Shown here: positions 8,704 through 24,457 of the stretch, one piece after another
Numbering within the stretch: the first letter of the stretch is position 1
Layout: each line of letters opens with the position of its first letter
Origin: a virus
Virus record (IMG/VR): IMGVR_UViG_3300046167_000727
Span: 1 to 25,018 of that record
Strand: one strand, 5' to 3'
DNA: 25,018 nucleotides
The notes under the pieces: generated by a model
Seen by the model: only the letters and a program-made list of their open reading frames with translations
Database searches by the model: none
Told to the model about the DNA's origin: nothing
Program-made: the position numbers and the translations under genes

Positions 8704-10488
8704 TTAATCAGGATTAAAACCAGTTGCTCTATTACTATTATTTACCGATTCGTTATCAACCTCTTCTACTACCTCTTCATCTACTATTGTATCTGGTGTA
8801 TCAACAACAACTTCTTCTTCTATTGTTTCTTCTTGTTCTTCTATACCAGGATTATAAAATTCATTGTTAACTATAAAATCAAATGATGAAGGATCCACTT
8901 GAGTTCCTAATTTTTTTGCATTTCCTATAGCAAGCATTATTTCTTCTAAATAGTCTGAAGTTTTTGCATTAACAGGAACTTTAATAGTCTCTGTTGTCAT
9001 ACCTGGTATTGTAATATTAACAGTATTAGAAGAGTTTACTTTAATGTTAGACATTCCTGCTTCTATTGCTTCTTCTAATTCTCCTGGAAAAAGTAAAGAA
9101 AAATAATTTTTACCTGCAATTTTTAAAGCTGTTACACCTTTTTTTGTTAAACTTGCTACTCTTCCACCAGTAAAAAAACCTTCAGTATAATCTTTTGTTA
9201 ATGGTACTTTAAATTCTCCTCCATCCTCAAAAGTAATTTCTGCATTATTAATGCCTACAGTATCTAAAACTGAATTTAAATTAGTAGCTACATCATTCTT
9301 ACCCTTTTTAGTTTCAAAAGAATCTTCATCAATAGTTCTTATGTAGTTTACAGCAGAAATAGGATCTCCGCCATCCGCTGGTATTATTTCATTGACAGGT
9401 GAATTAATCTCTGTTGGAGTCAAACCGTTTTCAGCCAATAGTGTTTTTTGTCTTAAAGCAAAATCTTGATCATATCTTCTTATCCCTTCATTATAAGCTC
9501 TATCAACATTAGCTAATGTTCTTTTTTGGAAAGTACTTAATTCATCTTTCTGCTCTACAGGTATCTGACTAGTTATTTCAGCTTTTACTATTTGTTCAGC
9601 GGCATCTTGATCGTAAAGATATTTATTATTTTTCATGTCATAAAAAATATATTCTCCCTTATTTTCATTATATAATTTTTCATCACTGGTATACTTATAT
9701 CCATTTTGATCTAATACACTAAGGGCATTTGCTTCGCTAGTAACCAAACTTTTTGCTAAAGTATCAATAGTTCCTGTTGCTGTTGATGAATCTATTTCAG
9801 CGCCTTGAATTGTAGTAATTATTTTTCCGTCTTTTGTGTATTGTTTTATACCTCTATTTGCTAATCTTTTTTGTATATCTCCTCTATAATTAAATGCCAA
9901 CTCTTTTTCTGTGCTTAAATAACCAAGCTGAGTTACATCTATTACTTCATCAGTAGGGTTCCCATCTTCATCTTTACGAACTAAAATTAATTCATCAGTA
10001 GCTGGATCAATAATAGCGGTGGTGTTTTTAAAATCTAAAAATTCTTGAGCAATAGATAGTTGATTTATCATTCTACCTGAAGCTTGTTTATCAGGGTCTT
10101 GTGATTGAACTAACTCCATGTTTTCCGCTAACTGTGAGTTGAATTTATCTGCATACAAAAAGAAATTTTCTGTACTACTTTTCATATTAGCTCTACGTGT
10201 ATAATACTCACGCTCGGATATCTCTCCTCTTTTCAATTTATTTAAATTAGCTAATGCAGCTTGAGAAGCTTGATCAGAATAACTACCTATTACAGTATTT
10301 AAATCTGAATTTGCTCCTTGTGGTCTATCTATTAAGGATTTAGTAAGTTCGCTATACTGCTTTTGTATATCATCTCTTTTATCTTGTCGAACTTTTTCTT
10401 GTTCTTTAAGATTGTCGCTAAAGTTTTTTGAAACCTCTGACCAATTTATATTTAAAGGTTCTTTATCCCTTACGTATCCGTATGCCAT
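8704..10488 (-). CDS. Internal virion protein, gp15-like position
   Basis: This 594-residue soluble protein is placed between the small Gly-rich internal protein and the giant ejection protein, each separated by only 2 nt. The N-terminal 150 residues are helical and charged (KEQEKVRQDKRDDIQKQY, then a Gln/Asn/Leu-rich stretch). The middle is mixed alpha/beta. The C-terminus (about 545-580) is an extremely acidic Glu/Val-rich tail. It has no signal peptide, membrane helix or enzymatic motif that I recognise. The three-gene order and size gradient (214, 594, 1981 residues) matches T7 gp14-gp15-gp16 internal core proteins, which are ejected with the DNA. The assignment rests mainly on context. 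Confidence 0.65.
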   Translation of the reverse strand: MAYGYVRDKEPLNINWSEVSKNFSDNLKEQEKVRQDKRDDIQKQYSELTKSLIDRPQGANSDLNTVIGSYSDQASQAALANLNKLKRGEISEREYYTRRANMKSSTENFFLYADKFNSQLAENMELVQSQDPDKQASGRMINQLSIAQEFLDFKNTTAIIDPATDELILVRKDEDGNPTDEVIDVTQLGYLSTEKELAFNYRGDIQKRLANRGIKQYTKDGKIITTIQGAEIDSSTATGTIDTLAKSLVTSEANALSVLDQNGYKYTSDEKLYNENKGEYIFYDMKNNKYLYDQDAAEQIVKAEITSQIPVEQKDELSTFQKRTLANVDRAYNEGIRRYDQDFALRQKTLLAENGLTPTEINSPVNEIIPADGGDPISAVNYIRTIDEDSFETKKGKNDVATNLNSVLDTVGINNAEITFEDGGEFKVPLTKDYTEGFFTGGRVASLTKKGVTALKIAGKNYFSLLFPGELEEAIEAGMSNIKVNSSNTVNITIPGMTTETIKVPVNAKTSDYLEEIMLAIGNAKKLGTQVDPSSFDFIVNNEFYNPGIEEQEETIEEEVVVDTPDTIVDEEVVEEVDNESVNNSNRATGFNPD

Positions 10489-10490
10489 AA

Positions 10491-11135
10491 TTAAGTCGTT
10501 TCTGTTTTATCTTTTGGAGCTTCGTTGGGATTATATAATGGAGTTAAAAACTCAAATATGTCGCTAGCTGCACTAGATATTCCTTGAACTCCCGCTAACG
10601 TAGAGGCTGATTGCGCAGCTCTTTGATCAGCTAACATTTGTTGATATCCTGTTGCTTTACCTAATTGTATATCTAATCTTCCTTGCTGTAATTTTGATAA
10701 CTCAGAAGCTTTATCTTTTTCTAATTGAAATTGTCTTTCTGCAAGACCAGCTCTTTGTTTAGCAAGAGCGTCTTGTTGTAAAGCGACAACTCTACCAACA
10801 CCTGCGCTTGCTCCTCTAGCCTCTCCTTCAGATACTGCCTGTATGGCTTGAGCTCCTGCTTGTGCTATTCCTTCTCTTTCTAAATCGTAAGCCTCCATAG
10901 GTATGCTTACTCCAGACATATATTGTTCCTCAAGTATTCTTCCCGCTTCTTCCATTGCTTTGTCAGCTTCTAACTGTGCGGCTACTTGATTGTCTCTTTG
11001 TTTTTTTGCATCTGCAAAACTCATTACACTACCTGCTAAACCAACTACAGCGCCTATAGGTCCTGCGGCTGCTCCTATTGCGCCTAACGCTTTGCCAAAT
11101 CCTGAAGGTCCATCTCCGGCTGAATCTTGTCCCAT
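10491..11135 (-). CDS. Small internal virion protein, gp14-like
   Basis: This 214-residue protein has an N-terminal Gly/Ala-rich hydrophobic stretch (about residues 11-42, with GAIGAAAGPIGAVVGLAGS) followed by a long helical Gln/Ala/Glu-rich region (residues 43-180) and a short C-terminal part. A hydrophobic Gly-rich N-terminus plus a long helical body is typical of T7 gp14-like internal virion protein B in marine podoviruses. These proteins insert into the outer membrane during ejection as the outermost part of the channel. It begins just after the GNAT gene and is followed 2 nt later by the gp15-like gene. Confidence 0.72.
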   Translation of the reverse strand: MGQDSAGDGPSGFGKALGAIGAAAGPIGAVVGLAGSVMSFADAKKQRDNQVAAQLEADKAMEEAGRILEEQYMSGVSIPMEAYDLEREGIAQAGAQAIQAVSEGEARGASAGVGRVVALQQDALAKQRAGLAERQFQLEKDKASELSKLQQGRLDIQLGKATGYQQMLADQRAAQSASTLAGVQGISSAASDIFEFLTPLYNPNEAPKDKTETT

Positions 11136-11136
11136 A

Positions 11137-11538
11137 TTATATTTTTTTAATTAATTCTGTTGTTATACTTCCTTTTCTAAAACCTTTATTTATAAAAGTG
11201 TTGATTAAATTTTCATTATCGTTTGTAGCAAATATATATTTCATATTTAAATTTTTACATGTTGATATTAATTTATCTAATAATAAATTAATAGCTTCTT
11301 TTCTTTTCTCTTTATGTTTTTTATCAGATATTATCCATTCTACCCAAGCAACTTTAGAGTTTGATATATATATAAAACCTGCGCAAACAGGTTTGTCTTC
11401 TACCGTTACCATTAATCCGCCTTCTCCATTCTCTGGCAAAAAATCTTTAGCTGGCGCCTGCCAACCCCAATCTTTCCACCATCCTACTAACACATTTTCA
11501 TAATCAGATGAATTTAATTTTCTTATACTAAATTCCAT
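11137..11538 (-). CDS. GNAT-family N-acetyltransferase encoded among the virion genes
   Basis: This 133-residue protein has a GNAT-like plan. It begins with IRKLNSSDYENV, then WWKDWGWQAP and LPENGEGGLMV, a central strand pair (PVCAGFIYISNSKVAWVEWI), a helix in the acetyl-CoA pyrophosphate-binding region (KKHKEKRKEAINLLLDKL) and a C-terminal GFRKGS strand. I recall very similar short acetyltransferases next to tail and internal-protein genes of marine podoviruses. Their substrate is not established; acetylation of a virion or host protein is possible. The classical Q/RxxGxG/A motif is replaced by a Lys/Glu-rich turn, so activity is not certain. It starts 22 nt after the proline-rich tail gene. 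Confidence 0.75.
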   Translation of the reverse strand: MEFSIRKLNSSDYENVLVGWWKDWGWQAPAKDFLPENGEGGLMVTVEDKPVCAGFIYISNSKVAWVEWIISDKKHKEKRKEAINLLLDKLISTCKNLNMKYIFATNDNENLINTFINKGFRKGSITTELIKKI

Positions 11539-11560: not shown

Positions 11561-12754
11561 TTAAGGATAGCTTTTCATTATATCGCTTTCTACGGCAAAC
11601 AATTCTGTTGCTGTTGTATTTTCATTTATTAAAGTAAAGATACAATAGTGACCAAGCAAACCATGAGACTCAGCTTCTGAGTTTTTAATGTATAATATAT
11701 AAGGATCATTTATTAATATTGGCTGCGAACCAGCTGTGGATGTAGTGAAAGTTATTCTGTTTACTGCGTTAGGTAAATCAACTTCTATATTTGTTATCTG
11801 ACCAGCTAAACTTATAGTGGTATACGAAGGCACAGATGAGTATAGATAATCACCTATACTAACTATACTTCCTATTGATACTAATGGGTTTATAGAAAAA
11901 TTAATAGTTCCAGTAGTACCTACAACCGATACATTAGAAGCTCTACCTATTCCATTTGCAGACCTCATTGCGTATTGTTGCGCCAATGCTGGTACCTCCC
12001 CACTCTGTCTTACAAATGCAAAGTAAGCTCCTTCTTTTTTAATAAACCAATCGCTTTCAATAAACCCTTGCGTTTGCAAATCAGTTTCAAAGTTTACCTG
12101 CCAAGCATTATCAGATTCTAAATTAAAAGTTTTAAATATTTTGTTTTGTAGTGGCATCTCATTAAACACACTTGTTACTTGTGAATTATATTGTATGCCA
12201 TAATAGTTATTTCTTGTGTCGTTTTCATTGTGCTGGTAAACATTTCCGTTTTTAAATGTGTAAAAATAATTATTCATTCCTAACATATAGTCTGGATTAT
12301 AAGAATAAAAGGACGGCCAACCACTAGCAGTTTCACTGTAGCTCAATGTATATTCTGTTTCAACTGGCGATGGTATAGGTGGAACAATACTTGATGGTGC
12401 AGGAGTAGGGGTTGCTGCTACTGGTGTGGGCGCAGCCGGTGTAGGACTTGGACCAGGAGTCGGTGAAGGAGCTGGAACTGGAGTAGCAGGCGCTGGAGCC
12501 GGAACTGGACTAGGTGAAGGAGAAGGATCTACACCTCCACAATTACTAGTACACGTTTCTCCTAAAGGGTTGGTTGATCCAGATAGTGAAGTGACTAATA
12601 CACGTCCACCAGGTTCAACACAGACTGTCTGTATATCTTCAGGGGATAAAATTACATTTGTTTTTACACCATTACAACAAGCAACAGTGTAAGTACATTG
12701 ATCTCCTATTGCGTTAAAGGGACATATTAATTCATAGGTAGAACAAGAAGCCAT
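11561..12754 (-). CDS. Proline-rich tail protein with nozzle C-terminal-like domain
   Basis: The 397 residues fall into three parts. Residues 1-75 are a Cys-rich module (eight Cys). Residues 76-131 are an uncharged Pro/Ala/Ser/Thr/Val tract (SPVPAPAPATPVPAPSPTP). From residue 132 there is a globular domain with GWPSFYSYNPDYMLGMNNYF, YTFKNGNVYQHN and KTFNLESDNAWQ. I recall this domain as the usual C-terminal part of large tail stabilisation/nozzle proteins in marine and crAss-like phages, where it follows the part seen in the 2158-residue protein. Here it is a separate gene with its own Pro-rich linker. It lies just downstream of the modification cassette and is a likely substrate of it. It is probably exposed on the short tail. 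Confidence 0.75.
   Translation of the reverse strand: MASCSTYELICPFNAIGDQCTYTVACCNGVKTNVILSPEDIQTVCVEPGGRVLVTSLSGSTNPLGETCTSNCGGVDPSPSPSPVPAPAPATPVPAPSPTPGPSPTPAAPTPVAATPTPAPSSIVPPIPSPVETEYTLSYSETASGWPSFYSYNPDYMLGMNNYFYTFKNGNVYQHNENDTRNNYYGIQYNSQVTSVFNEMPLQNKIFKTFNLESDNAWQVNFETDLQTQGFIESDWFIKKEGAYFAFVRQSGEVPALAQQYAMRSANGIGRASNVSVVGTTGTINFSINPLVSIGSIVSIGDYLYSSVPSYTTISLAGQITNIEVDLPNAVNRITFTTSTAGSQPILINDPYILYIKNSEAESHGLLGHYCIFTLINENTTATELFAVESDIMKSYP
12362..12529 (-). repeat. AP/SP/TP/VP tract in the 397-residue tail protein
   Basis: Codons 76-131 encode alternating Pro with Ala, Ser, Thr or Val and almost no charged residues. Such tracts form polyproline II helices. Non-contiguous Ala-Pro, Ser-Pro and Thr-Pro are the arabinogalactan-type glycomodules of plants, where Pro is hydroxylated and glycosylated. 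The DNA is more GC-rich than its neighbours because of the Pro and Ala codons. Confidence 0.9.
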
Positions 12755-12770
12755 AAAATATATTTAAATA

Positions 12771-12778
12771 CAAAAATA
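12771..12778 (-). promoter_or_regulatory. Candidate Bacteroidota -7 promoter element before the 397-residue gene
   Basis: Read on the - strand, the 52-nt gap between the 183-residue dioxygenase gene and the proline-rich tail gene contains TATTTTTG, which fits the Bacteroidota primary-sigma -7 consensus TAnnTTTG, 16 nt before the ATG. I find no clear TTG-type -33 element at the expected distance, so this may be a weak internal promoter or chance in AT-rich DNA. Confidence 0.25.
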
Positions 12779-12806
12779 CGAATTTAATTGCTATAGTTTT
12801 AAATTC

Positions 12807-13358
12807 TTAATCTCTTCTATATCCTGAGACTTGCATAGTAAATTTATCTTTCTGACCAGCATTACAAGATAGGTGTAATACAGAACTATCCCAAAGTAAA
12901 CCATCACCTGCTTTCCAATCTACAGAAGTGGTCCACTTTTTATTATTATGAATGTCTTGATATTGTATCATGTGGCCTATCTTCCAGTCTTCTAAATATA
13001 AATTAAGCCTCACTTTAGTTCTCTTGTCGTCTGGATATAACTTTTTAAATTTAAAAAATGTATCTCTGTGAAGAGTAACAACGTTACCAGGAGGTTGCAT
13101 AATAGTAGATACAGTTTTAATGTCCATATTTAATTGATCTTCCCAACCATCAAATATTGGATCTTCAATATTATACCATAACTGTTGTATTACAGTATTG
13201 TTTTCATCGTAAGAATAACCATTACCATATTCACTATATAAATCATTTTGCTCCTCTCTTTGATAAGAGATACAAGAACCTTTATGATAATTATAATCTT
13301 GCTTTTCTGAAAGAAAGTGCGAGTAATCAAAATTTAATTTTACTTTTTCTAATATCAT
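12807..13358 (-). CDS. 2OG-Fe(II) dioxygenase, Asp/Asn-hydroxylase-like
   Basis: This 183-residue single-domain enzyme has the jelly-roll dioxygenase signature: MQPPGNVVTLHRD with Fe ligands His97 and Asp99, VRLNLYLEDW (residues 116-125), and GDGLLWDSSVLHLSCNAG with the distal ligand His162. Arg181 near the C-terminus could bind 2-oxoglutarate. The pattern PPG..xxHxD, vRxxL, W..GD...D...H resembles aspartyl/asparaginyl beta-hydroxylases and phage dioxygenases more than prolyl 4-hydroxylases. It probably hydroxylates an amino-acid side chain (or a sugar) using O2 and 2-oxoglutarate. It is the last gene of the modification cassette, 19 nt after the fucosyltransferase-like gene. The substrate is unknown; the adjacent virion proteins are the obvious candidates. 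Confidence 0.75.
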   Translation of the reverse strand: MILEKVKLNFDYSHFLSEKQDYNYHKGSCISYQREEQNDLYSEYGNGYSYDENNTVIQQLWYNIEDPIFDGWEDQLNMDIKTVSTIMQPPGNVVTLHRDTFFKFKKLYPDDKRTKVRLNLYLEDWKIGHMIQYQDIHNNKKWTTSVDWKAGDGLLWDSSVLHLSCNAGQKDKFTMQVSGYRRD

Positions 13359-13377
13359 GTTTTAATTTTATATAAAG

Positions 13378-14262
13378 TTAATAATTTTTTAGAATTATAT
13401 TTCCATTCTCATCAATATTGCCTACCGTATTTTTAAATAAATTCATTTGTGGATCCATTCCGTGTTTGTCTGGCCATGCAAAAACCTGGTTGTGACTTAA
13501 TAAAGCAGCGCTTTGAGAAAAAGCAGAGTATGCAGGAATTAATACTGCAGCATTTAACATTAATATAAAGCTATCATAAGTAGATAATTTATTCTCAATG
13601 ACTATAGAAGGATAAGCTTTAATAATCTTTTCCCAATCTACACTTATTAATGGCCATTCTCCATTATCATTTTTATCAAGCCATGGTTGATGCCACATAT
13701 TGTATTGTTTTAAATCTTTTTTTATTGGCATATAAGTAGTGTCATAATCTGGGGCATCAGTTAATAAAATAACTCTAGGATTAAATATTTTTAACTGTGC
13801 GCAAATGAAATCTATTTGATTCAATATGTGTACATAAACATCTTCAGGAGTATGTCGAGGGTTTGATTTAACTGCATTACCCCTTCTCATATGAATAACT
13901 ATATTTTTATTTTGCTTTGCGTAGTGTTTGTTAAATATAGGTGCGTTAAGTAAAAAATCACAATGATCAGCAAACCCAGGAGCTGGAGCGCCCTGTCCAA
14001 CTAAGTTTGTAAGTTCCCATTCAAAAGAATTAAAATCTATTTCTTTCCAGGGGTTATATAATATATGATTAAACTTATATAAAATCTCGTAATAAATTTT
14101 TTCATTTTCTGCATTGTCACTAGGGTGAATTAAAAACCAACTTAAAGGTTTATTTTTAAATAACATTTTATGGTGGTATGCATAAGACATTGCATAAATT
14201 TTTTTCCACAACATTGCGCCTATCCCATCTGTTGTTTGAAACTCTTCTACTATTTTTATCAT
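13378..14262 (-). CDS. Fucosyltransferase-superfamily glycosyltransferase (HxRRG type)
   Basis: This 294-residue protein has the layout of alpha-1,2/alpha-1,6/protein O-fucosyltransferases. Near the N-terminus is DGIGAMLWK (residues 12-20), equivalent to the GGxGNQ loop. IVIHMRRGNA (residues 121-130) is the GDP-fucose-binding HxRRGD motif, with Asn129 in place of the usual Asp. The C-terminal STYDSFILMLNAAVLIPAYS (residues 227-246) is the conserved region contacting the nucleotide. It likely transfers a deoxyhexose or related sugar from a GDP-sugar supplied by the host. It overlaps the carbamoyltransferase gene by 4 nt (ATGA), so the two are probably translated together. The exact donor and acceptor cannot be read from the sequence. 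Confidence 0.68.
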   Translation of the reverse strand: MIKIVEEFQTTDGIGAMLWKKIYAMSYAYHHKMLFKNKPLSWFLIHPSDNAENEKIYYEILYKFNHILYNPWKEIDFNSFEWELTNLVGQGAPAPGFADHCDFLLNAPIFNKHYAKQNKNIVIHMRRGNAVKSNPRHTPEDVYVHILNQIDFICAQLKIFNPRVILLTDAPDYDTTYMPIKKDLKQYNMWHQPWLDKNDNGEWPLISVDWEKIIKAYPSIVIENKLSTYDSFILMLNAAVLIPAYSAFSQSAALLSHNQVFAWPDKHGMDPQMNLFKNTVGNIDENGNIILKNY

Positions 14263-15695
14263 AATATTACTAGTTCATCTAACCCTGTATTGTTTAACAT
14301 CCACATTGCATCTTCATAATTATTTAATATTGGTTTACCCTGAACATTAAAAGATGTGTTTAATAGTATAGGTTGTACACCATTGCTTTCCAATACAGTT
14401 AAAACTTTATATAAATAAGGATTAGAATTAGATGTAATTGTTTGAAGTCGAGCTGTGTTGTCTGCGTGAACTATTGAGTCAATGGAGTCATTTTTAAATA
14501 TAACTTTAGCATTGTGTGACATCCATAAATTTGTTGCGTTTGATTCAAACCATTTAGTTTTATCTTCCTCTCTACATAAAGGAGAAAAAGGTCTAAAAGA
14601 TTCTCTGTATTTTATAGTATTGTTTAACCTCTCTTTCATTCCTTTAGAAGGCAAACAAAGTATAGATCTATTTCCTAAAGCTCTAGCTCCATACTCACTG
14701 TTACCTTGAACTAAACCTATAATGTTTTTATCAATTATTTTTAAAGCAAACTCTTCAGCTGTTAAACTATTATGTTTATTTCCAGTCCAAGGCAAACCAA
14801 TATACATACTATTAAATTTTTCTTTTGGTCTGATTATTTCTAATAGACATCCTAATGCTAACCCTCTATCGTCAGGATTAGGAGAGACAAATGCGTTATG
14901 TCTAGCATTGTTTATAATATTCATAGCACCACCACCACAGAATATTATAGGCAAATCTTTTTTATAACCTTTTATAATATCATTAAATATAGATTCAAAA
15001 ACAAATTGAGATGTTGCTGCAATATCCTCTGGCTTCCCCTGTATATTTAACGACTGATATCTTTCGTGTGCTACATTAACATTGTCTACACTTTGCCCTA
15101 AATAATAACTATAAAACTTAGGGATTAAACTATAATCAATTTTGCCTAAACCTGCTAGCCCCATAATTTTTCCAGCATATACTAAATTTCCCCACCACCA
15201 ATTTTTCTCTGTCTTTATTGGCTCTAAGTAATGAGCAACAGCTGCATAAGAAACACATAAATCGATACCAATATTAGACAATAATTTAGGAGTGCTTCCT
15301 TTGATAGCTTCAAATATTTTAAAAAAACCCTCTTCACTTCCTCCGTCAAAACTTACAACTAAAGCTTTGTCATAGTCAGATTGATATAAACCATTTGCAC
15401 AATGAGCAGTATGATGAGGTATATACCTATACTCATCTGCTTCCACAAGTTGATGAAGATTATTATCACTGGTGTATCCAACCACAGAATATTTATTTAC
15501 ATTGTATTTGTTTTTTAAATACAGTATAATTTCTTTAAATGTATTCTCAGGATTATCAATAGGGAAATGATAAGCAAAGGCTGCATTTTTTATTCCAACC
15601 CATCTTTCAAGTTCTACTACTTCTTTTACTTTGTTATCTACCGCAATGCCAATAGCAGAATTATGGCTACCAAATACACCTAATTTAAAATCCAT
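14259..15695 (-). CDS. NodU/CmcH-family O-carbamoyltransferase
   Basis: This 478-residue protein shows all the family landmarks: YIPHHTAHCANG (residues 91-102, metal/carbamoyl-adenylate site), VVSFDGGSEEG (113-123), KIMGLAGLG (176-184), FCGGGAMNI (252-260), NPDDRGLALG (273-282), GNSEYGARALGNRSI (331-345), FRPFSPLCREE (367-377) and LNTSFNVQGKPI (445-456). These enzymes make carbamoyl-adenylate from carbamoyl phosphate and ATP and transfer the carbamoyl group to a sugar or antibiotic hydroxyl. It is shorter than typical bacterial members (about 550-600 residues), but the active-site motifs are complete. Placed between two fucosyltransferase-like genes, it most likely carbamoylates the sugar they attach. 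Marine phages and cyanophages are known to carry such genes, generally with unknown targets. Confidence 0.92.
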   Translation of the reverse strand: MDFKLGVFGSHNSAIGIAVDNKVKEVVELERWVGIKNAAFAYHFPIDNPENTFKEIILYLKNKYNVNKYSVVGYTSDNNLHQLVEADEYRYIPHHTAHCANGLYQSDYDKALVVSFDGGSEEGFFKIFEAIKGSTPKLLSNIGIDLCVSYAAVAHYLEPIKTEKNWWWGNLVYAGKIMGLAGLGKIDYSLIPKFYSYYLGQSVDNVNVAHERYQSLNIQGKPEDIAATSQFVFESIFNDIIKGYKKDLPIIFCGGGAMNIINNARHNAFVSPNPDDRGLALGCLLEIIRPKEKFNSMYIGLPWTGNKHNSLTAEEFALKIIDKNIIGLVQGNSEYGARALGNRSILCLPSKGMKERLNNTIKYRESFRPFSPLCREEDKTKWFESNATNLWMSHNAKVIFKNDSIDSIVHADNTARLQTITSNSNPYLYKVLTVLESNGVQPILLNTSFNVQGKPILNNYEDAMWMLNNTGLDELVIL

Positions 15696-15699
15696 TTAT

Positions 15700-16656
15700 T
15701 TAATATTCATTTACATAACAATTTTCCCAGCTATAATTTTCTTTTCCGTTGAATGTATAATTTAATAAAGTTTTACTACAATCTTTTTTTCCTTTGTAAT
15801 GTCTAATAATATTTATATAATCCGTGAATGTAGAGTATCGGCTTCCATAAAACAAATCAGCATTAGCGCACATTAAAGTGTCATAAGCTATTGATGAGAC
15901 CATATCTACATTTTTAAAGTCTGATAAATAATAACATTCATATCCATTTAAACATTCAAATAATTTTCTATTTTTTTCATCTGTTGCTATATATAAAGGT
16001 TTGTCTGTGTTTAAATATTTATCTATCATATCACGTAAATTTGTAAATAAACTGACTGTACTATCAGGTCTTGTCTGATTAAAATCTCCGCTTCGTATAT
16101 GTACAGCATTGTATGGCTGTGATATAAACTGTTCATTATATTTTGAGTTTAATTTTAATCCATTTCTTAATTTATATTTTATAATTTGTTTGTCTTTATC
16201 TTTTACACCTCCTATTAAATGATACCAATGCCCAAACATATTTCTAGGAAAATGTATAAATTTATCTGCATGGTTTAAATAATAAACATTTAAAGGTTTA
16301 GTGTAAGTATCTCCATTAACACCCCAATTAGGATGATTAGTTTCTGGCAAACATTTAATATCATTACAGATACCATCATAATATTGAATTTCAGATTCAT
16401 ATTTTTTATATTCAGGAACATCATAATAATCCACACAATTAAAATATTTAAAGAATAAATCTTTATTGAATAAATCCCAGAAATTAAAAAAAGATTTTTT
16501 TTGATCGTGTTCACTTAAAAATAAACAATAGACTCTATGAGGTATAATTAATTTTCTTTGCGTTATAACTGAAATAGCTGCTGCCATTTCATAAGTCATT
16601 CTAATGTTGTTTAATCCACCCCACCATGCATCAAACGATATGTACTTATCCTGCAT
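15700..16656 (-). CDS. Protein O-fucosyltransferase (POFUT)-like glycosyltransferase
   Basis: This 318-residue protein has the hallmarks of the GDP-fucose protein O-fucosyltransferase family. FDAWWGGLNNIRMTYEMAAA (residues 8-27) is the acceptor/donor loop equivalent to GGxNNQR. YNAVHIRSGDF (182-192) is the HxRxGD GDP-sugar motif. YIATDEKNRKLF (222-233) and YGSRYSTFTDYINIIR (270-285) are the conserved C-terminal region. POFUT-type enzymes attach fucose to Ser/Thr of folded protein domains in eukaryotes, and relatives act in plant wall glycoprotein synthesis. The N-terminus has no signal or membrane anchor, so it acts in the cytoplasm on proteins being assembled. It overlaps the dioxygenase gene by 11 nt and precedes the carbamoyltransferase by 4 nt. 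Assignment to the superfamily is firm; sugar and acceptor are inferred. Confidence 0.8.
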   Translation of the reverse strand: MQDKYISFDAWWGGLNNIRMTYEMAAAISVITQRKLIIPHRVYCLFLSEHDQKKSFFNFWDLFNKDLFFKYFNCVDYYDVPEYKKYESEIQYYDGICNDIKCLPETNHPNWGVNGDTYTKPLNVYYLNHADKFIHFPRNMFGHWYHLIGGVKDKDKQIIKYKLRNGLKLNSKYNEQFISQPYNAVHIRSGDFNQTRPDSTVSLFTNLRDMIDKYLNTDKPLYIATDEKNRKLFECLNGYECYYLSDFKNVDMVSSIAYDTLMCANADLFYGSRYSTFTDYINIIRHYKGKKDCSKTLLNYTFNGKENYSWENCYVNEY

Positions 16657-17926
16657 AAGACCAGTCTTTCAACTTGTAATGAACATAAAAATTTCTAAAA
16701 TATGTGCCGCCAAAAGATTCTAGTCTTGCATGCTCGCATTTAGCAGACTCATATAATATTATGTCTCCTGGTTGAGCATATACTTTATACCAATCTCCAT
16801 CGTGACCTTGAACATCTAACGGCCAATCTTCTGATTCGGGTTTGTTAGCGCACCCACAAGTTAAATTTTTATCTACAATAATAATAGAGCTAATGTGGTG
16901 GGTAGCTATTCTATCTACGTGTGCGGTTAAAGTTGCTCCTTTCAAATAAGATCTAATGCCATATATAAATGAAGGGTCTAAATTTTCTCCACTCCACTCT
17001 TCATGCATTGACTGTAACTCTGAATGAATGTAAGACCTTATAGCTGGTATAGCGTCAAAAGAAAGTATTTCGCTTCCCCCACCTTTTATTATATCTTCTT
17101 TTCCTTCAAACTTTTCTTCTTGAATTTTATCTTTTAATAAATAATAAGAATCATTAATGATATTCCACACATTATCAGGACACTTTTTTATAGCAAAACC
17201 ATTTTCGGTAAATGTTGGAAAATCATTAACGTTAGTAAATGTTTTCTTAGATGTATTTAAAGAATTATCTATTACATCTTTAGCAGAAGCTTTAACGATA
17301 TAAGATTCTCTTTTAATAGGCTCTGTCTTTTCTGCCATTTTAGTTTCCTTGTATAAATTTTCATCTCCAGCTCCATCCCAATTGTTTTCTCTCCACCAAG
17401 AAGTTACTATATATTTTTTCCCTTTTTCTACAGAAACACCTTCGTGTAAATATTGATTTTGATATTCTCCATCTTTTATATTTTCCCACCACAATCCCTT
17501 TCCTATTTCTGGTTCTATTGTTTTATTTAAATTAGGAAAATTAGTTCCACCCCCGACAAAATCATCATTAAGATAAATCATAAAAGTTTGAGTTCTGTTG
17601 CCTGAAGATTTACAATGCATATCGTATGCAGCTCCTGTAAAAAAATCATTGTGTGGTTTAAAATATTGACCTTCCTCATAAAGCTGACCTTGCAGGGCCT
17701 CTCCCTTACTTATGTCTAACTTTAAATAATCAGCTATTTTTTTATGTACACCTGCAACTAAAGAGTTGTTCATGTCTAAATTTGATGTGCTAGATGTTCG
17801 ATGGTCTGTTACGTCAGTTCGATCGGTGCCACCAACTACTACAGATGAACGAGTGTGATTTTCATTAATCATATTGATTAATTCATTACACTCTTGAACT
17901 GTTAAAAAGTTATTTATTTCCTCCAT
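16646..17926 (-). CDS. Two-domain 2OG-Fe(II) dioxygenase with N-terminal prolyl 4-hydroxylase-like domain
   Basis: A 426-residue fusion. The first domain (about 1-180) has the prolyl 4-hydroxylase pattern: DHRTSSTSNLD (residues 41-51), LYEEGQYFKPHNDFF with Fe ligands His92 and Asp94, TFMIYLNDDFVGGGTNFPN, then LHEGVSVEKGKKYIVTSWW with distal ligand His161 and 2-oxoglutarate-binding Lys171. After a charged linker (about 181-240), a second domain has GIRSYLKGATLTAHVDR (His336, Asp338), then GDIILYESAKCEHARL (His399) and Arg411. Both sets of Fe ligands are intact. Prolyl 4-hydroxylases of algae, plants and chlorella virus PBCV-1 act on Pro-rich repeats such as PAPK, so the flanking AP tracts are plausible substrates. 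It is the first gene of the cassette, after a 54-nt gap from the nozzle gene. Confidence 0.87.
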   Translation of the reverse strand: MEEINNFLTVQECNELINMINENHTRSSVVVGGTDRTDVTDHRTSSTSNLDMNNSLVAGVHKKIADYLKLDISKGEALQGQLYEEGQYFKPHNDFFTGAAYDMHCKSSGNRTQTFMIYLNDDFVGGGTNFPNLNKTIEPEIGKGLWWENIKDGEYQNQYLHEGVSVEKGKKYIVTSWWRENNWDGAGDENLYKETKMAEKTEPIKRESYIVKASAKDVIDNSLNTSKKTFTNVNDFPTFTENGFAIKKCPDNVWNIINDSYYLLKDKIQEEKFEGKEDIIKGGGSEILSFDAIPAIRSYIHSELQSMHEEWSGENLDPSFIYGIRSYLKGATLTAHVDRIATHHISSIIIVDKNLTCGCANKPESEDWPLDVQGHDGDWYKVYAQPGDIILYESAKCEHARLESFGGTYFRNFYVHYKLKDWSYAG

Positions 17927-17929
17927 TAG

Positions 17930-17978
17930 ATTTGATTTAATTTCATTAAAGGTAGAAATAATAATTTATTAATCAAAT
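17930..17978. promoter_or_regulatory. Inverted repeat in the gap before the modification cassette
   Basis: The 54-nt gap between the nozzle gene stop and the dioxygenase ATG contains an 8-bp perfect inverted repeat, ATTTGATT at 17930-17937 and AATCAAAT at 17971-17978, with 33 nt between. It could form a stem upstream of the start or be an operator. The surroundings are very AT-rich, so chance is possible. No consensus TAnnTTTG element or T-run terminator is present in this gap. Confidence 0.2.
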
Positions 17979-17980
17979 AT

Positions 17981-20900
17981 TTATGGACATCCTGTACAGT
18001 TTCCACCCCATGCTGATCCAGTCCAATATCTTACATTTCCACCATCTGATACAAATACTGCAGTTGGATACACAAAACTACATGAATTGTTTTCTCCATA
18101 ATAAACTGTAGAGGTGCATAAATCAGTAGTGTCAAAAAATCCTGTTATATTTCTCGTTGCAAGACACGCATCGTTACCTGAGTTTGCGTTTTGTTTAACG
18201 GTAATACCATTACAAGACACTGAAGGTGCAGGCGCTGGCGCAACAGGTACAGGAATAGGAGCAGGCGCTGGCGCTGGCACAGGAATAGGCGCAGGAGCAG
18301 GAGCAGGCGCTGGCACAGGAATAGGTGTTGGCGCTGCAGGCGCTGGCGCAGGGCTAGGTGCAACTGGTGCCGGTACTGGAGAAGGCGTTGCAGGCGCTGG
18401 AGCAGGCGCTGTTGGAGAAGGTGGTGTACACCCTCCACAACTCGATTCAACAGATATTGTAGTTACACTACAATCAGTCGCTGTATTAACAGCTATAATT
18501 TCCCAACACTTAGCTCCTGTAAATCCAGCTCCACAGGATCCTCCACCACCTCCGCTTATCTTAATTGCAACACCTATTGCGGAAGAACTATAGGTTCCAG
18601 ATAGAGTTATATAAGCAGTAGAACTTGCGTCATTACAATCTCTAATTTGAACATTTGTAGTTGGTGCTGCAGCCGGAGCCGGTGTTGGAGCTGGACTTGG
18701 AGCAGTACAACTTACTTTAGCCTGAACAACTCCTAATGCTGTAATTAATAATTTATAATCTGGGGTTGCTTGGCCCAAGACATTTGATACTCCAAACCAT
18801 TCTAATCCTCCATCAAATACTGTAGATTTAGAAGAATTAGCATACATTATATCGTTTACTTGTATTGCGTTTACATTTGCTGCATTAGTAAATATGTAAT
18901 TACTTGTAGCAAAATTACAAGCGGTAGACTCTATGTAACCATTAGTAGGCGTAGCGTTTACAAACATTGTCGGGTTTTCACAATCAAAACAATTGTTATG
19001 CGTTGTAAGCCCCACAATAGAAACTCCAGATGTACTAGATGTAGTTTGAGCACTAGAGAAACATAAGTCATTACCACCTACATTATATTCTATTACTGTT
19101 GGAATAGATGTTCCAAAAGGTATTTCAAATACTTGTGTACTGCTTGTTTGACATTCTGTATATTCTCTATATGTAGGAGGTTCACAATCAACACATCCTC
19201 CTGGATAATGAGCAGCTATAGTAACATCACAATCAAAAGTTGAAGATGAAGGATTTAATACATACCAACATCTAGTTCCGTCAAAATTAGGCGTATAAAC
19301 ACCACTACAATCAGTGCTTGTAAATTTAAACGCTTGATTTGTTGTGTATCCGTTTGTTCCCGTTATTCTTACTTTTCTAATTGGCGTAGTTGTTCCGCAT
19401 TCTGCTACGTCTATTAATTGAGAAATTACTGCTGGAGCTGGAGCAGGAGCAGGCGCTGGACCTGGACATCCTGTTTGTGATGAAACCAATTGAATATTAG
19501 AACAAGGAGAACCTTGATCTGTAGCAACACCAGGTGTGTTATTGTAGTAATAAAAAGTTCCTGTGCTTCCGTCAATAAATCTTTGTTGATTTTGAGGTTG
19601 TGTTGCTGATTCAAAATAACATCCTGGACTAGAATCACACGCTATTAAGAAATAAAATAATGGCGCTGCTGGAACTGGAGCAGGTATAACTGATGGAACT
19701 GGTACTATTGGTGCAGGCGCTGGAACTGGCACGACTGGCGCAGGCACTACTGGCGCTGGGGCTGGAACTGGAACCACTGGCGCTGGGGCTGGAACTGGTG
19801 ACGGACTTGGTGCAGCCGGACTTGGTGCAGGCACTGGCGATACTGAAGGTGCAGGCGCAGGTATTGGCGTAGGCACTACAGGCGCAGGTGTCGGTGTAAG
19901 TGAGGCTGTATAATCGTAAATTAAATATAAATTATTTTCATTCCCTACTGGCATGGTAAAGTTTGCAGTATATGTGTTAGGCGCATCTGCACTATTTGTT
20001 CCAATAACTGTTGCTGCTGCTAGTAAATTTGTAATGTCTGTAATATTATTAGCATAAGTAGTGTTAGTTCTTACAAATGCAAATGCGTCCGCAGCAACAT
20101 CAAAAACAAAATCATCAAAATTAATTTTATTAGAATATAAAGTAACAGTAGATCCATCTGGAGGTATCATAAGCGACCCTTGACCACCAGTTAAAACTTG
20201 ATATTGAGAAATAACAAATGATGTTGTGCCTGTTCCAAAAGTAACTAAATCAGATTGAATAGGTGAACTTGTTGTGTTATCCGTCCAGCTAAATTCATTA
20301 TGAATAAATTGTCCAGCATCTGTTGGGTTTGTTACACAGACACTGTATACATTTATAACATTTTCTGCAGGACAACTTACGTTAATCTCTATAGTGTCAT
20401 TTTGTGTGGAGTCTTGAGAAACAATAACGGTAGCTTGTGTTTGTGCTGGTGATTGTTTCGGGAAAGTAAAAGTTCCTGATTGATATACTGTGCCTGAGGT
20501 ATAAGTTATACCATCATAAATTACTTGAACAACATATCTGGTTTGAGACAAACTTCCCTCTGTTATAATTTGATCTCCACCTTCTGTTGTCACTAATATA
20601 CTGGTTTCACTTACCACGTCTTCTTCTCCCTCTTGTGGAATTGTATAAGTTACAGTAACAGTTCCTAACTGTTGAGTAACATCTACACAATAAATAAAGT
20701 CTGTGTTTGCAAGTACCGTTATGTTTTTACTAACACCACAAGCTAAACATAAAGGCACTTCTGGTTTTAATATAGTATTAGATGTTAAAACATACTCATT
20801 CATGTAAGGATCAAATCCTCCTAATTTTTGAGTAGTAAAAGAAACAGTAAATAAATCTCTAAACCAGCTTCTCATTCCTGTTTGAGAAATAATTATTAAT

Positions 20901-23900
20901 TGCTCATCTTTAAATGAACTACCTTTTAATTGAATTACAGCATTTCTTTTTGCATCTGTAAAATATTTGTTTTCTCCCCAAGCAGCAAAACTTTCAGGAT
21001 GATTACTAATACCAAAATTTTCAATTCTTGCAACTTGCTGTCCTAAAACAGTTGGTACAGATGTAAGTTGTCCGCCGCCAGAAGCGTCTGTTAGAATATC
21101 TTTACCAGCTAAAACATAAGATATTTTATCTTCTTGCAGCGTGAGTATGTCAGTTTTTCTTGCAAATAATATTTCAACATCACCATAAGATTCTTCAAGA
21201 GCTTTAAAATTTAACAATCCTAAATTAAATTCATTTAATTTGTTTACGTTACTTTCATCATTATATACTCCACTGTATGTTAAATCTGCAAATCTTAACG
21301 CTTTTTTATATTCTACGTTAGAAGTGGTAAAAATCCTATTTCCAAGATTCATAGTTTTTCCAACTAAAGAATCTCTTATCTTATAACTTTCAACACCATT
21401 ACCAAATGCATAACAATTAAAAAATCCTGTATTTACTAAACCTGAAACGTTGTTTTCTATATCTTGATTTACTAAATTACCCGCATGATTTCCTAATGTA
21501 TCTATACCAAAAGATAAATCATTTTCATACCATGCGTCAGGTAAAGCTTCATTAGGCTCTGTTTCAAATGCTATAAATGTATCTCTTCTAAAAACAACAA
21601 AACTTACTTGAGCAAAAGAAGCTCCATCATCATTAAGAAATCTACAAGCTGCTGTTCCGCTAACTAATATTGAGTATGTATTATCATTGGTATTCTGATA
21701 CCACCTGTAATAATTGTTTTCTAAAACATCAGATTTTGTAGTAGGGCTATTCGGTTCACCGCCAAACGTTGTATATAACTGTGTTCTAGTTGCGTCGTTT
21801 GTTGCTGCTCCGGTAGCTAAAGCAGTTCCAGCACCAGTAACTAGTCCGTCAATTACAATGTTCCCTACTGGGTCAGCTGGAGTTCCTGAAAAGGTAGTAG
21901 CATTGTTTTCTATAATGTATTTAGCATTACTATCTAAAAACCATTGATACATATCTGTATATGTATCGTCAGCAATAAAAGTTTGCTCTAATATACTTGT
22001 TCTTTGTTCACATAAATTCCCTGTACCATTACGAGTTTGTTCTATTTTCATCACAATCCTTGAACCTACAGGTACATTATATGTTGTGTTTGTTACTCCC
22101 TCAGTTGTATAAAAAGGATAATAAGCAACAGGATGATCATTTTCAATATAAGACCCAGCTCTTATTAAACCCAAATCGACAACATCGTTTACTTCTTCTT
22201 GCGTATCAAAATCTCGTGAGTTCATTTTCATATACGTGCCCCCTGGAACTGGACTTCCACTAGCAGGTGTAACAAAATCAGCTACCTGAACTGCTTTTTC
22301 TAAAACTGTTGCGTATCTACATGATTGCAAAGCACCACCTGCATCTCTTTTAATAATAAGTCTATCTCCCTCTTGCACTTTAGATGCGTTTTCTCCTTCT
22401 AATAATAAAAAAGTATTTTGAGAGTTAGGATCCTCAAAGAAGATACTTGCATATATAGTGTTATAATTTTCTCTATCTGGTTTTATACAAAACTTATATC
22501 TTGTCGCCCAACTTGGAGCTCTTTGTTCTGGGGGAATAGTTACATTAATTTGATTTTTAGATGTAGAAGCTGAACATGGAATATTTACAGTGTTGTTTGT
22601 GCTTACCAAAGCAGTCGACGCTCTGTTAAATTCATCCATATAAATAATACCCACTTCATATCCTCTATTACTATGTAAACTAGAAGTGTTTGCCACTTCT
22701 TGTATTGAACAATCAGCAGAAGTTATTTTATAATACTGTATAATTAAATCTGTTCCAGTTCCTGTTTCTTCGTATTGAGCACACATTAAAGCAAAGCTTA
22801 AAACATTACCTGTGCTTCCTGATAAAAAAATAGCTTCTCCTTTATTAGGAGGCGCAAGAGTAGCGTTAGTAATTCCCGTTTGGTTTATGTCATACTGAGG
22901 TGCAGAACTTCCTAATTGTGCTAACAAAGCATTATTAAACACATCTGTAAATGTTATCCCTGTACCGGCTTGGGCATTAACAACTGTTTGTATTGTGCCA
23001 TTAACGCCTCCTGTACCTACTTGATCTTTAAAATCTTGATTTGCAATTAATTCTAAAATAGGTGTAGCTGTATTGTTGTAATCTCTAGTTAATGTATAAG
23101 ACCATGATATTGTTGTTGGACCTTGACTTGTGTTTGGTAAAACAGCGGAACCTACAGCAAAAGAAGACTCTAGCTCAAAAGTAAAACTAAAGTTTAATAC
23201 TGAACCTTTAAGCATTTTATCTGTATTTCCAGCAAAATTTACATCTAACCTGTTAGCAGTACTAGTGTATGAATTTCCAAAAGCAGTATAACTTTGTTGA
23301 AAAAAAGTTGATGTTAAAGACGATAAAGAAATAGGAGTGCTTTGCAGTGAAACACTATAACTTAAATTAAGAGGAGAATTATATATAGTAGTTAAATCAT
23401 ATCCTTCCACATAATTACCATACACTAATCTATTTTCCATCAAAGTTTGTGCTTTAGCAAACCTTGGCACATTATCATATAATCTTAATATTTCAAATTC
23501 TGGTAAAACAGTAAATATTTTACTATTAGTAAAGGTAAAAGTATAATTAGTGTTATTTAACAACCCAGAGCTTGTCTTATCAATCCTTTCAATAATTTTA
23601 ATTGTGGGATCTGTAGCTTCTTTGAACAATAAATCTATACCTGTAACTAAAGCACTACCAGAATTATATTCTATATTAACTCCGTTAAATCTATTAATCA
23701 TTCCTTCATTTAAAAAACTGTTTGAAGAAAATTCAAATGCATTTGGAGCATAAGCTGGTTCAGAAAACTGAGAAGTTGCTGAATATTCATCATTAGCATA
23801 TTTATATCTATATGCAAAACAAATAAAATTGTCTTCCATATAGGCGTCTTCTAAGGATGTTTTAATTAAAGTAATAACTGGAGAAGCAATAGGTGGTTTT

Positions 23901-24457
23901 TTAATAACCATTATTTCTTCTGCTGTAAATTGATCTATGTTTGCAACAGGGTCTGCATAATTATTGTTTACATCAATAACTCTTGGAGCATTGGTGTTGT
24001 CAGTAAAAAATAATAAATTATCAACTTTGTTAACACCTGTAATTAAAAATTGAGAATTAAAATTTAATGTAGTAATTCCCCCACTGCCATTATCTATACT
24101 AATTACATGATAAATTAAACCCCCAGTTGTAACATTATAGGATACAATTAAATCTAAATTCCCTGTAGCACCAACTGTAAAAGAAGAATCATGTATAAAC
24201 CAATAAATAGTTTCATTAGCTCCATCTTCGAAAGCTCCTATACATCTAGCAGATGAACTTAAAGCTGTACCGTCAATATACTGTAAAGAGGTTATTTTAC
24301 TATTTCCTTTAGAGTTTTCTACTGCACCGATTTCAGACTCTTCGGTTGAACCAAGTCTGACATTTAATGCATCAATATATTCCCCGTTAGGTATAAGCCT
24401 TTCGTCAAGGCTTTTATTCATTCGGCCTGCTACAAAATTTCTTTGAATGTTTGCCAT
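17981..24457 (-). CDS. Tail nozzle/stabilisation-type protein with Cys-rich modules and AP-rich linkers
   Basis: A 2158-residue protein. The N-terminus (DERLIPNGEYIDALNVRLG at about 18-36, then LLFFTDNTNAPRVIDVN near 160) is the signature of large tubular/nozzle (stabilisation) tail proteins of marine and crAss-like podoviruses. The region near 1140-1225 (PESFAAWGENKYFTD, MRSWFRDLF, GGFDPYMNEYVL) belongs to the same fold. After Ig-like, Thr/Val-rich sequence come small modules with paired Cys separated by Pro-Ala linkers at 1521-1599, 1665-1675, about 1915-1932 and 2011-2078. It ends in a Cys-rich domain. The repeated modules probably project from the tail and are candidate receptor-contact and glycosylation sites. 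It follows the adaptor-like gene and directly precedes the hydroxylase/glycosyltransferase cassette. Confidence 0.82.
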   Translation of the reverse strand: MANIQRNFVAGRMNKSLDERLIPNGEYIDALNVRLGSTEESEIGAVENSKGNSKITSLQYIDGTALSSSARCIGAFEDGANETIYWFIHDSSFTVGATGNLDLIVSYNVTTGGLIYHVISIDNGSGGITTLNFNSQFLITGVNKVDNLLFFTDNTNAPRVIDVNNNYADPVANIDQFTAEEIMVIKKPPIASPVITLIKTSLEDAYMEDNFICFAYRYKYANDEYSATSQFSEPAYAPNAFEFSSNSFLNEGMINRFNGVNIEYNSGSALVTGIDLLFKEATDPTIKIIERIDKTSSGLLNNTNYTFTFTNSKIFTVLPEFEILRLYDNVPRFAKAQTLMENRLVYGNYVEGYDLTTIYNSPLNLSYSVSLQSTPISLSSLTSTFFQQSYTAFGNSYTSTANRLDVNFAGNTDKMLKGSVLNFSFTFELESSFAVGSAVLPNTSQGPTTISWSYTLTRDYNNTATPILELIANQDFKDQVGTGGVNGTIQTVVNAQAGTGITFTDVFNNALLAQLGSSAPQYDINQTGITNATLAPPNKGEAIFLSGSTGNVLSFALMCAQYEETGTGTDLIIQYYKITSADCSIQEVANTSSLHSNRGYEVGIIYMDEFNRASTALVSTNNTVNIPCSASTSKNQINVTIPPEQRAPSWATRYKFCIKPDRENYNTIYASIFFEDPNSQNTFLLLEGENASKVQEGDRLIIKRDAGGALQSCRYATVLEKAVQVADFVTPASGSPVPGGTYMKMNSRDFDTQEEVNDVVDLGLIRAGSYIENDHPVAYYPFYTTEGVTNTTYNVPVGSRIVMKIEQTRNGTGNLCEQRTSILEQTFIADDTYTDMYQWFLDSNAKYIIENNATTFSGTPADPVGNIVIDGLVTGAGTALATGAATNDATRTQLYTTFGGEPNSPTTKSDVLENNYYRWYQNTNDNTYSILVSGTAACRFLNDDGASFAQVSFVVFRRDTFIAFETEPNEALPDAWYENDLSFGIDTLGNHAGNLVNQDIENNVSGLVNTGFFNCYAFGNGVESYKIRDSLVGKTMNLGNRIFTTSNVEYKKALRFADLTYSGVYNDESNVNKLNEFNLGLLNFKALEESYGDVEILFARKTDILTLQEDKISYVLAGKDILTDASGGGQLTSVPTVLGQQVARIENFGISNHPESFAAWGENKYFTDAKRNAVIQLKGSSFKDEQLIIISQTGMRSWFRDLFTVSFTTQKLGGFDPYMNEYVLTSNTILKPEVPLCLACGVSKNITVLANTDFIYCVDVTQQLGTVTVTYTIPQEGEEDVVSETSILVTTEGGDQIITEGSLSQTRYVVQVIYDGITYTSGTVYQSGTFTFPKQSPAQTQATVIVSQDSTQNDTIEINVSCPAENVINVYSVCVTNPTDAGQFIHNEFSWTDNTTSSPIQSDLVTFGTGTTSFVISQYQVLTGGQGSLMIPPDGSTVTLYSNKINFDDFVFDVAADAFAFVRTNTTYANNITDITNLLAAATVIGTNSADAPNTYTANFTMPVGNENNLYLIYDYTASLTPTPAPVVPTPIPAPAPSVSPVPAPSPAAPSPSPVPAPAPVVPVPAPAPVVPAPVVPVPAPAPIVPVPSVIPAPVPAAPLFYFLIACDSSPGCYFESATQPQNQQRFIDGSTGTFYYYNNTPGVATDQGSPCSNIQLVSSQTGCPGPAPAPAPAPAVISQLIDVAECGTTTPIRKVRITGTNGYTTNQAFKFTSTDCSGVYTPNFDGTRCWYVLNPSSSTFDCDVTIAAHYPGGCVDCEPPTYREYTECQTSSTQVFEIPFGTSIPTVIEYNVGGNDLCFSSAQTTSSTSGVSIVGLTTHNNCFDCENPTMFVNATPTNGYIESTACNFATSNYIFTNAANVNAIQVNDIMYANSSKSTVFDGGLEWFGVSNVLGQATPDYKLLITALGVVQAKVSCTAPSPAPTPAPAAAPTTNVQIRDCNDASSTAYITLSGTYSSSAIGVAIKISGGGGGSCGAGFTGAKCWEIIAVNTATDCSVTTISVESSCGGCTPPSPTAPAPAPATPSPVPAPVAPSPAPAPAAPTPIPVPAPAPAPAPIPVPAPAPAPIPVPVAPAPAPSVSCNGITVKQNANSGNDACLATRNITGFFDTTDLCTSTVYYGENNSCSFVYPTAVFVSDGGNVRYWTGSAWGGNCTGCP
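18224..18427 (-). repeat. AP/VP tract 4 in the nozzle protein (residues 2011-2078)
   Basis: Sixty-eight residues made only of Pro, Ala, Val, Ile, Ser and Thr, with the recurring unit PIPVPAPAPAP. At DNA level the + strand repeats ACAGGAATAGG at 18249-18259, 18279-18289 and 18315-18325 within GCAGGCGCTGG-type tandem units. This is the longest alternating Ala-Pro tract and lies immediately before the C-terminal Cys-rich domain, so it acts as a stiff spacer. Confidence 0.9.
19433..19465 (-). repeat. Short AP tract 2 in the nozzle protein (residues 1665-1675)
   Basis: Eleven residues, PGPAPAPAPAP, form a pure Ala-Pro linker between two Cys-rich modules. It follows a Cys (CPGPAP), like the CTAPSP and CTPPSP boundaries of the other linkers, which points to a repeated module-plus-linker architecture. 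Confidence 0.8.
19661..19897 (-). repeat. AP/VP/SP tract 1 in the nozzle protein (residues 1521-1599)
   Basis: Seventy-nine residues of alternating Pro with Ala, Val, Ser, Thr or Ile (for example PSPSPVPAPAPVVPVPAPAP), with no charged or aromatic residue. It marks the boundary between the Ig-like/propeller part and the Cys-rich modules. The DNA contains tandem GGCGCTGGGGCTGGAACTGG-like units shared with the other tracts. Confidence 0.9.

Follow-up and report, generated by a model that had tools for sequence, protein, structure and literature searches.

A putative phage cassette for hydroxylation and O-glycosylation of proline-rich linkers in the phage's own tail muzzle

The window considered here (the whole of the 25,018-base IMG/VR viral record IMGVR_UViG_3300046167_000727) carries on its minus strand a cassette of five co-directional, almost abutting open reading frames (positions 12807-17926), placed within the structural gene block and lying between two proteins with long proline-rich tracts. 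Going from the large flanking gene through genes 1 to 5 to the small flanking gene, the successive spacings are 54, -11, 4, -4, 19 and 52 nt. A preliminary description of this DNA had claimed five consecutive enzyme genes flanked by two Xaa-Pro proteins, and order, strand and coordinates all hold; it had also placed the flanking proteins in the tail and taken them to be the only ones with long tracts, both of which are borne out by what follows. The host of the phage is likely to belong to the Bacteroidota, since relatives of the large structural protein sit in phages of Cellulophaga, Flavobacterium, Tenacibaculum and Maribacter.

The large flanking protein (2158 residues; 17981-24457, minus strand) matches the virion structural family phrog_14478 (9e-202) but has no Pfam match itself, whereas the small one (11561-12754, minus strand) ends in a domain matching Pfam crAss_MUZ_C (2.8e-17), which is also matched by 7 of 7 relatives. 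Because one relative of the large protein matches crAss_MUZ (3.4e-10), and because in L084 (elemo), L085 (Calle) and L204 (compared loci being referred to by L numbers) the muzzle is a single reading frame matching both parts, the large protein is best read, on sequence grounds, as the muzzle body, and the two flanking proteins as crassvirus-type muzzle parts. Accordingly, the cassette sits inside a split muzzle gene, between its two halves. Within the group of phages to which the window belongs the muzzle is split into two genes, with the split filled either by the cassette or by one variable gene. The crAss001 muzzle is a hexamer located at the tail tip (PMC10172136).

The muzzle body consists of a conserved core (residues 1-1515) followed by small Cys-containing domains linked by Xaa-Pro tracts, of which script counts delimit one at residues 1512-1608 (19634-19924, minus strand), made up mainly of Ala-Pro (AP), Val-Pro (VP), Ser-Pro (SP) and Thr-Pro (TP), and another at residues 2000-2090 (18188-18460, minus strand); counted in the same way, the tract near the N-terminus of the C-terminal muzzle part covers residues 63-138 (12341-12568, minus strand). 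Proline density peaks at 15 per 30 residues in each flanking protein, as against at most 4 per 30 in the remaining minus-strand late-region proteins, and the two muzzle proteins hold the window's only long Xaa-Pro tracts. That the tracts might be a plain DNA repeat artefact was considered and rejected, because their proline codon usage (CCT/CCA 0.45/0.46) equals that elsewhere in the two genes (0.44/0.47). PDB sequence searches with both muzzle parts returned only low-complexity matches to the proline tracts.

Gene 1 (16646-17926, minus strand) encodes a prolyl 4-hydroxylase (P4H) domain (residues 4-185) fused to a second domain resembling 2-oxoglutarate (2OG) oxygenases (residues ca. 230-420), as judged from Pfam, PDB sequence searches, alignment, an AlphaFold model and Foldseek. 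It matches Pfam 2OG-FeII_Oxy_3 (5e-13), and its P4H domain matches the PDB sequences of Bacillus, human collagen, Chlamydomonas and PBCV-1 P4Hs (best E value 2e-25); the AlphaFold model (mean predicted local distance difference test score, pLDDT, 76) again leads Foldseek to P4Hs (E about 3e-12), including an algal P4H with bound (Ser-Pro)5. The P4H ligands for iron (H92-x-D94 and H161) and for 2OG (K171) are invariant in 11 homologues. In the second domain, which of all cassette parts varies least across loci, H336-x-D338 and H399 are conserved and the HxD(E)...H pattern is retained. The N-terminal domain is thus classed, from sequence and model, as a prolyl-4-hydroxylase homologue for which hydroxylation of peptidyl-proline is predicted. 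No cellular homologue of the P4H didomain was found in 84,980 bacterial and archaeal genomes using exact peptide patterns, by which only close relatives are detectable, and the annotated phage records hold neither a copy of the complete didomain nor a DNA match to the cassette.

Gene 2 (15700-16656, minus strand) encodes an O-FucT-family glycosyltransferase (Pfam PF10250, 4e-12; 46.8 bits against a curated cut-off of 31.5), with a match to POFUT2 (5e-4) and conserved HxR, ATDE and STFT motifs; from this family membership, use of GDP-fucose and a protein acceptor are predicted. Gene 3 (14259-15695, minus strand) is a carbamoyltransferase of NolO/TobZ type in which both Carbam_trans domains are present (N-terminal 5e-8, C-terminal 6e-49), with further matches to phrog_1601 (5e-86) and to TobZ and GdmN in the PDB. 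For gene 4 (13378-14262, minus strand) there is no Pfam, PHROG or PDB match, its hhalign probability against the O-FucT family is 14%, and its AlphaFold model is unusable (pLDDT 38); that it is a glycosyltransferase is nevertheless plausible, because the sister phages L005 and L162 hold a PF11397 gene in the same slot. PF11397 itself, a GlcNAc-transferase family, has no match in the window's own cassette by Pfam search. Gene 5 (12807-13358, minus strand) is a probable third 2OG oxygenase of PhyH-like type, in which H97-x-D99 and H162 are invariant among five relatives, although the PhyH match (E 0.0026) falls below the cut-off. PDB sequence searches with gene 4, gene 5 and PF11397 gave nothing useful. 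Compared with what had been proposed earlier, then, the P4H-like identity of gene 1 stands on sequence, predicted fold and intact ligands, and the POFUT-like and carbamoyltransferase assignments of genes 2 and 3 also stand; the notion of gene 4 as a second fucosyltransferase is not supported, and the third dioxygenase keeps its residue pattern without a family match above threshold.

In order to compare tracts and enzymes across phages, loci were collected via relatives of the muzzle, of the P4H didomain and of the O-FucT gene, duplicates were removed, and the 100 loci having both muzzle parts were kept; a tract was defined as at least 8 prolines in 30 residues, and gene calling across the compared loci was mechanical. 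Tract and cassette occurred together in 65 loci and were both missing in 35, and no locus had one without the other. The same pattern was seen (33 with both, 35 with neither, none mixed) when, to avoid ascertainment bias, the count was restricted to loci retrieved through the muzzle gene. The check that the preliminary description had called for, namely whether tracts and cassette occur independently in related phages, therefore came out in favour of the link, and the core proposal that the cassette acts on the tail proline tracts is strengthened. Twelve tract-less contigs of 45-64 kb carry no P4H didomain and no PF11397 gene anywhere, although in some of them a small, unrelated 2OG oxygenase scores close to the profile cut-off. 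A hydroxylase-type domain is present in 60 of the 65 cassettes, and many of the uncultured phages retrieved for comparison carry the cassette.

The pairing is kept through a good deal of change at the locus. The protein hosting the tract may be the muzzle body, an extra protein in the interval or the C-terminal part, and the tract type varies among AP, SP, TP, VP and PPV, with the enzymes being retained in each case; tract and cassette are still paired where muzzle identity has fallen to 46-50%. The transferases are exchanged between loci, where O-FucT plus carbamoyltransferase, PF11397, Gly_transf_sug or unassigned genes accompany a constant hydroxylase pair (some of the iterated profiles used here, for epimerase, Gly_transf_sug and unassigned families, overlap each other), and some cassettes add radical SAM-SPASM, FkbM methyltransferase or epimerase genes. 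PF11397 is carried by the sister cassettes L005, L033 and L038, and is paired with the P4H in sister cassettes. In L033, as in some other sister cassettes, the hydroxylase and PF11397 genes are separated by one for a radical SAM-SPASM enzyme (10077-10979). Beside the P4H didomain of many loci there are also recurring proteins of about 220 and 277 residues (e.g. L027:11232-12065 and L035:17931-19396) having no Pfam family above cut-off. Fused genes occur as well: L185 has a single 860-residue frame (4763-7345) matching both O-FucT and carbamoyltransferase profiles, with like fusions in L187, L191 and L208, and in L193 and L200 O-FucT is fused to PF11397. From these fusions it can be argued that the fused enzymes work on one product.

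A similar association recurs in unrelated phages that have no muzzle match. In L164 (1004-5449), L168 (5806-12252) and L171 (3516-7934) an Ig-domain protein of tail or head type with a terminal TP or Glu-Pro (EP) tract is followed by O-FucT and then P4H genes, in a gene order opposite to that of the window and with a P4H didomain of another type; in L171 a tail fibre gene with an S74 chaperone directly precedes the Ig-domain tract protein. A scan that started from tracts and covered phages outside the muzzle group found a cassette-type enzyme in 4 of 26 TP loci and in none of 32 AP-linker loci, the former being L374, L395, L416 and L431, where PF11397, carbamoyltransferase or P4H-type genes lie near TP tracts. 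The tract by itself was rejected on these counts as a predictor of the enzymes, since most phage proline tracts are without such neighbours. In the stretch examined of L395 (1-9101, on a contig of 229 kb) a PF11397 glycosyltransferase lies between two TP-tract proteins, and no P4H is present there.

From these findings we infer substrate, chemistry, sugar, order of steps and benefit as follows. The five genes would constitute a protein-modification cassette directed at the Xaa-Pro linkers in the muzzle of the phage's own tail. In the host cytoplasm, prolines of freshly synthesised linkers would be hydroxylated by the P4H domain, possibly with help from the second oxygenase domain; the O-FucT-family enzyme would place on the hydroxylated linker a sugar that is probably fucose, taken from GDP-fucose of the host; the carbamoyltransferase would then carbamoylate the added sugar; and genes 4 and 5 might lengthen the product or oxidise it further. 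The outcome would be a tail tip with stiff arms coated in glycan; the effects on adsorption or protease resistance that the preliminary description had raised would be conjectural, and the immune-like recognition it also mentioned is speculative. Taken as a whole, the scheme in which the five-gene cassette hydroxylates and O-glycosylates the muzzle linkers is regarded here as reasonably probable. Its parts differ: it is very likely that the tracts are a target of the cassette enzymes in some way, and likely that proline is hydroxylated, and there is a slight balance in favour of the glycan being attached at least partly to hydroxyproline (Hyp), but a carbamoylated deoxysugar can be put forward only tentatively. 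On the wider proposal, that this represents a modular phage Hyp-glycosylation system for tail-tip proteins, with exchangeable transferases (of O-FucT, PF11397 and Gly_transf_sug types) and carbamoylated sugars, found in many uncultured Bacteroidota-type phages and separately assembled in unrelated phages, opinion must be evenly divided.

Several observations weigh against this scheme. The muzzle tree gives only two independent contrasts for the link between tract and cassette, for which reason the Fisher p of 3.6e-20 was rejected as proof and overstates the case. The P4H half of gene 1 is missing from six loci in which the second domain is present, among them L237, where no P4H was found in 59 kb; because most of the six have Ala/Val-Pro tracts, it may be that the second domain itself acts on proline, or else that hydroxylation by the P4H half is dispensable. 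L149 and L156 have a hydroxylase and no recognisable transferase. In cyanophage-type loci O-FucT, the second domain and carbamoyltransferase occur together with no tract within 10 kb. Finally, some of the bacterial P4Hs to which the structural search led were solved as modifiers of EF-Tu.

The O-FucT family is known from modification of Ser and Thr, and one could suppose that the transferases O-glycosylate the Ser and Thr residues of the tracts, any prolyl hydroxylation serving merely to stiffen a linker whose prolines stay free of sugar. The loci L149 and L156, which have a hydroxylase and no recognisable transferase, would suit this, as would the existence of hydroxylase-free cassettes with PF11397; in the cassettes having no hydroxylase (L009, L013, L024, L028 and L279) 75-85% of tract prolines follow Thr or Ser. 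Across the hydroxylase-bearing phages, however, the proportion of tract prolines preceded by Ser or Thr ranges from 17 to 92%, and at 28% in the window and 17% in L237 such sites are few; this, together with the hydroxylase domain being so nearly universal in the cassettes, makes the supposition unlikely, and the pattern fits the idea that hydroxylation provides the acceptor where Ser and Thr are scarce, although the cassettes with no hydroxylase represent two lineages only. PF11397 is named after the Dictyostelium enzyme that adds N-acetylglucosamine (GlcNAc) to a hydroxyproline of Skp1.

More remote from the proposed linker modification is the suggestion that the cassette modifies the host surface (fucosylation or carbamoylation of polysaccharide or lipopolysaccharide, with superinfection exclusion as a possible purpose), the tracts being coincidental linkers. 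NolO/NodZ-type enzymes do act on small glycans, and a similar gene set in cyanophage S-SCSM1 was read by its authors as one for cell-wall modification (PMC9602691). Set against this are the pairing with tracts, which has no exception in the muzzle group, the location within the muzzle locus, the presence of a P4H homologue, for which polysaccharide synthesis offers no role, the lack of any strong membrane segment in the cassette enzymes (maximum Kyte-Doolittle value 1.61), and the recurrence of the cassette beside another tract protein, so that a host-surface role appears very improbable. An equally small probability attaches to mere co-inheritance, whereby tract and cassette, with no functional tie, were passed on together within a single variable interval of the muzzle locus and the P4H targets a host protein such as EF-Tu: the independent transitions on the muzzle tree are indeed few, tract and cassette do occupy one interval, and the structural matches include Bacillus and Pseudomonas P4Hs that were solved with EF-Tu or carry its name, but the tract differs between loci in its sequence and in which of three proteins bears it, and the transferases are swapped, with the pairing still kept across the muzzle divergence given above, and the pairing recurs in muzzle-less phages.

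Hydroxylation and glycosylation of muzzle linkers would have partial counterparts elsewhere. In plant and algal Hyp O-glycosylation (arabinogalactan proteins, extensins) the tracts are likewise non-contiguous AP/SP/TP/VP ones and the P4H is related, through the (Ser-Pro)5-binding algal enzyme; unlike that system, the window has no recognised Hyp-galactosyl- or arabinosyltransferase and no sign of a secretory route, and has O-FucT and carbamoyltransferase genes instead. The closest precedent for cytoplasmic Hyp-glycosylation, by analogy, is the Skp1 pathway of Dictyostelium and Toxoplasma, where a cytoplasmic P4H is likewise combined with a glycosyltransferase and to which the PF11397 genes of sister cassettes provide a further parallel; Skp1, however, is modified at one proline, whereas the phage has long tracts, and the window's cassette lacks PF11397. 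The PBCV-1 prolyl hydroxylase (5c5t) is a virus-encoded P4H homologous to gene 1 (E 1e-10), but it comes from a eukaryotic virus and is not tied here to a transferase cassette.

Glycosylation of phage virions is, to our knowledge, known from few phages. In mycobacteriophages the C-termini of capsid and tail-tube proteins are glycosylated (Freeman et al. 2023, cited in PMC12619734), which resembles the present case in that virion proteins, including those of the tail, are modified by phage-encoded means, but the passage on it in PMC12619734 mentions no prolyl hydroxylase or carbamoyltransferase. S-SCSM1 (MK867354; L086, L282-L286) comes nearer in gene content, having an O-FucT (32% identity) between 2OG oxygenases, together with carbamoyltransferase and GDP-fucose synthesis genes, and two of its annotated virion proteins, ORF19 and ORF217, carry tracts (RP/QP/SP and TP/SP, in one-letter code); these differ from the window's in lying far from the enzyme block. 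No description of Hyp glycosylation in phages was found among 5.4 million open papers, a coverage outside which most subscription papers and all preprints fall. If the proposal is correct, it would amount to a prokaryotic-virus counterpart of the hydroxyproline-rich glycoproteins of plants, would explain what some of the numerous 2OG oxygenases in aquatic phages do, would supply cytoplasmic enzymes that might produce Hyp-glycoproteins in bacteria, and would make testable the idea of a tail-tip glycan coat that governs adsorption or protection.

Immediately after the gene for the C-terminal muzzle part there is a small GNAT-like gene (11137-11538, minus strand; Pfam match below cut-off), which was considered as a further member of the cassette and rejected, because it occurs in loci both with and without tracts.

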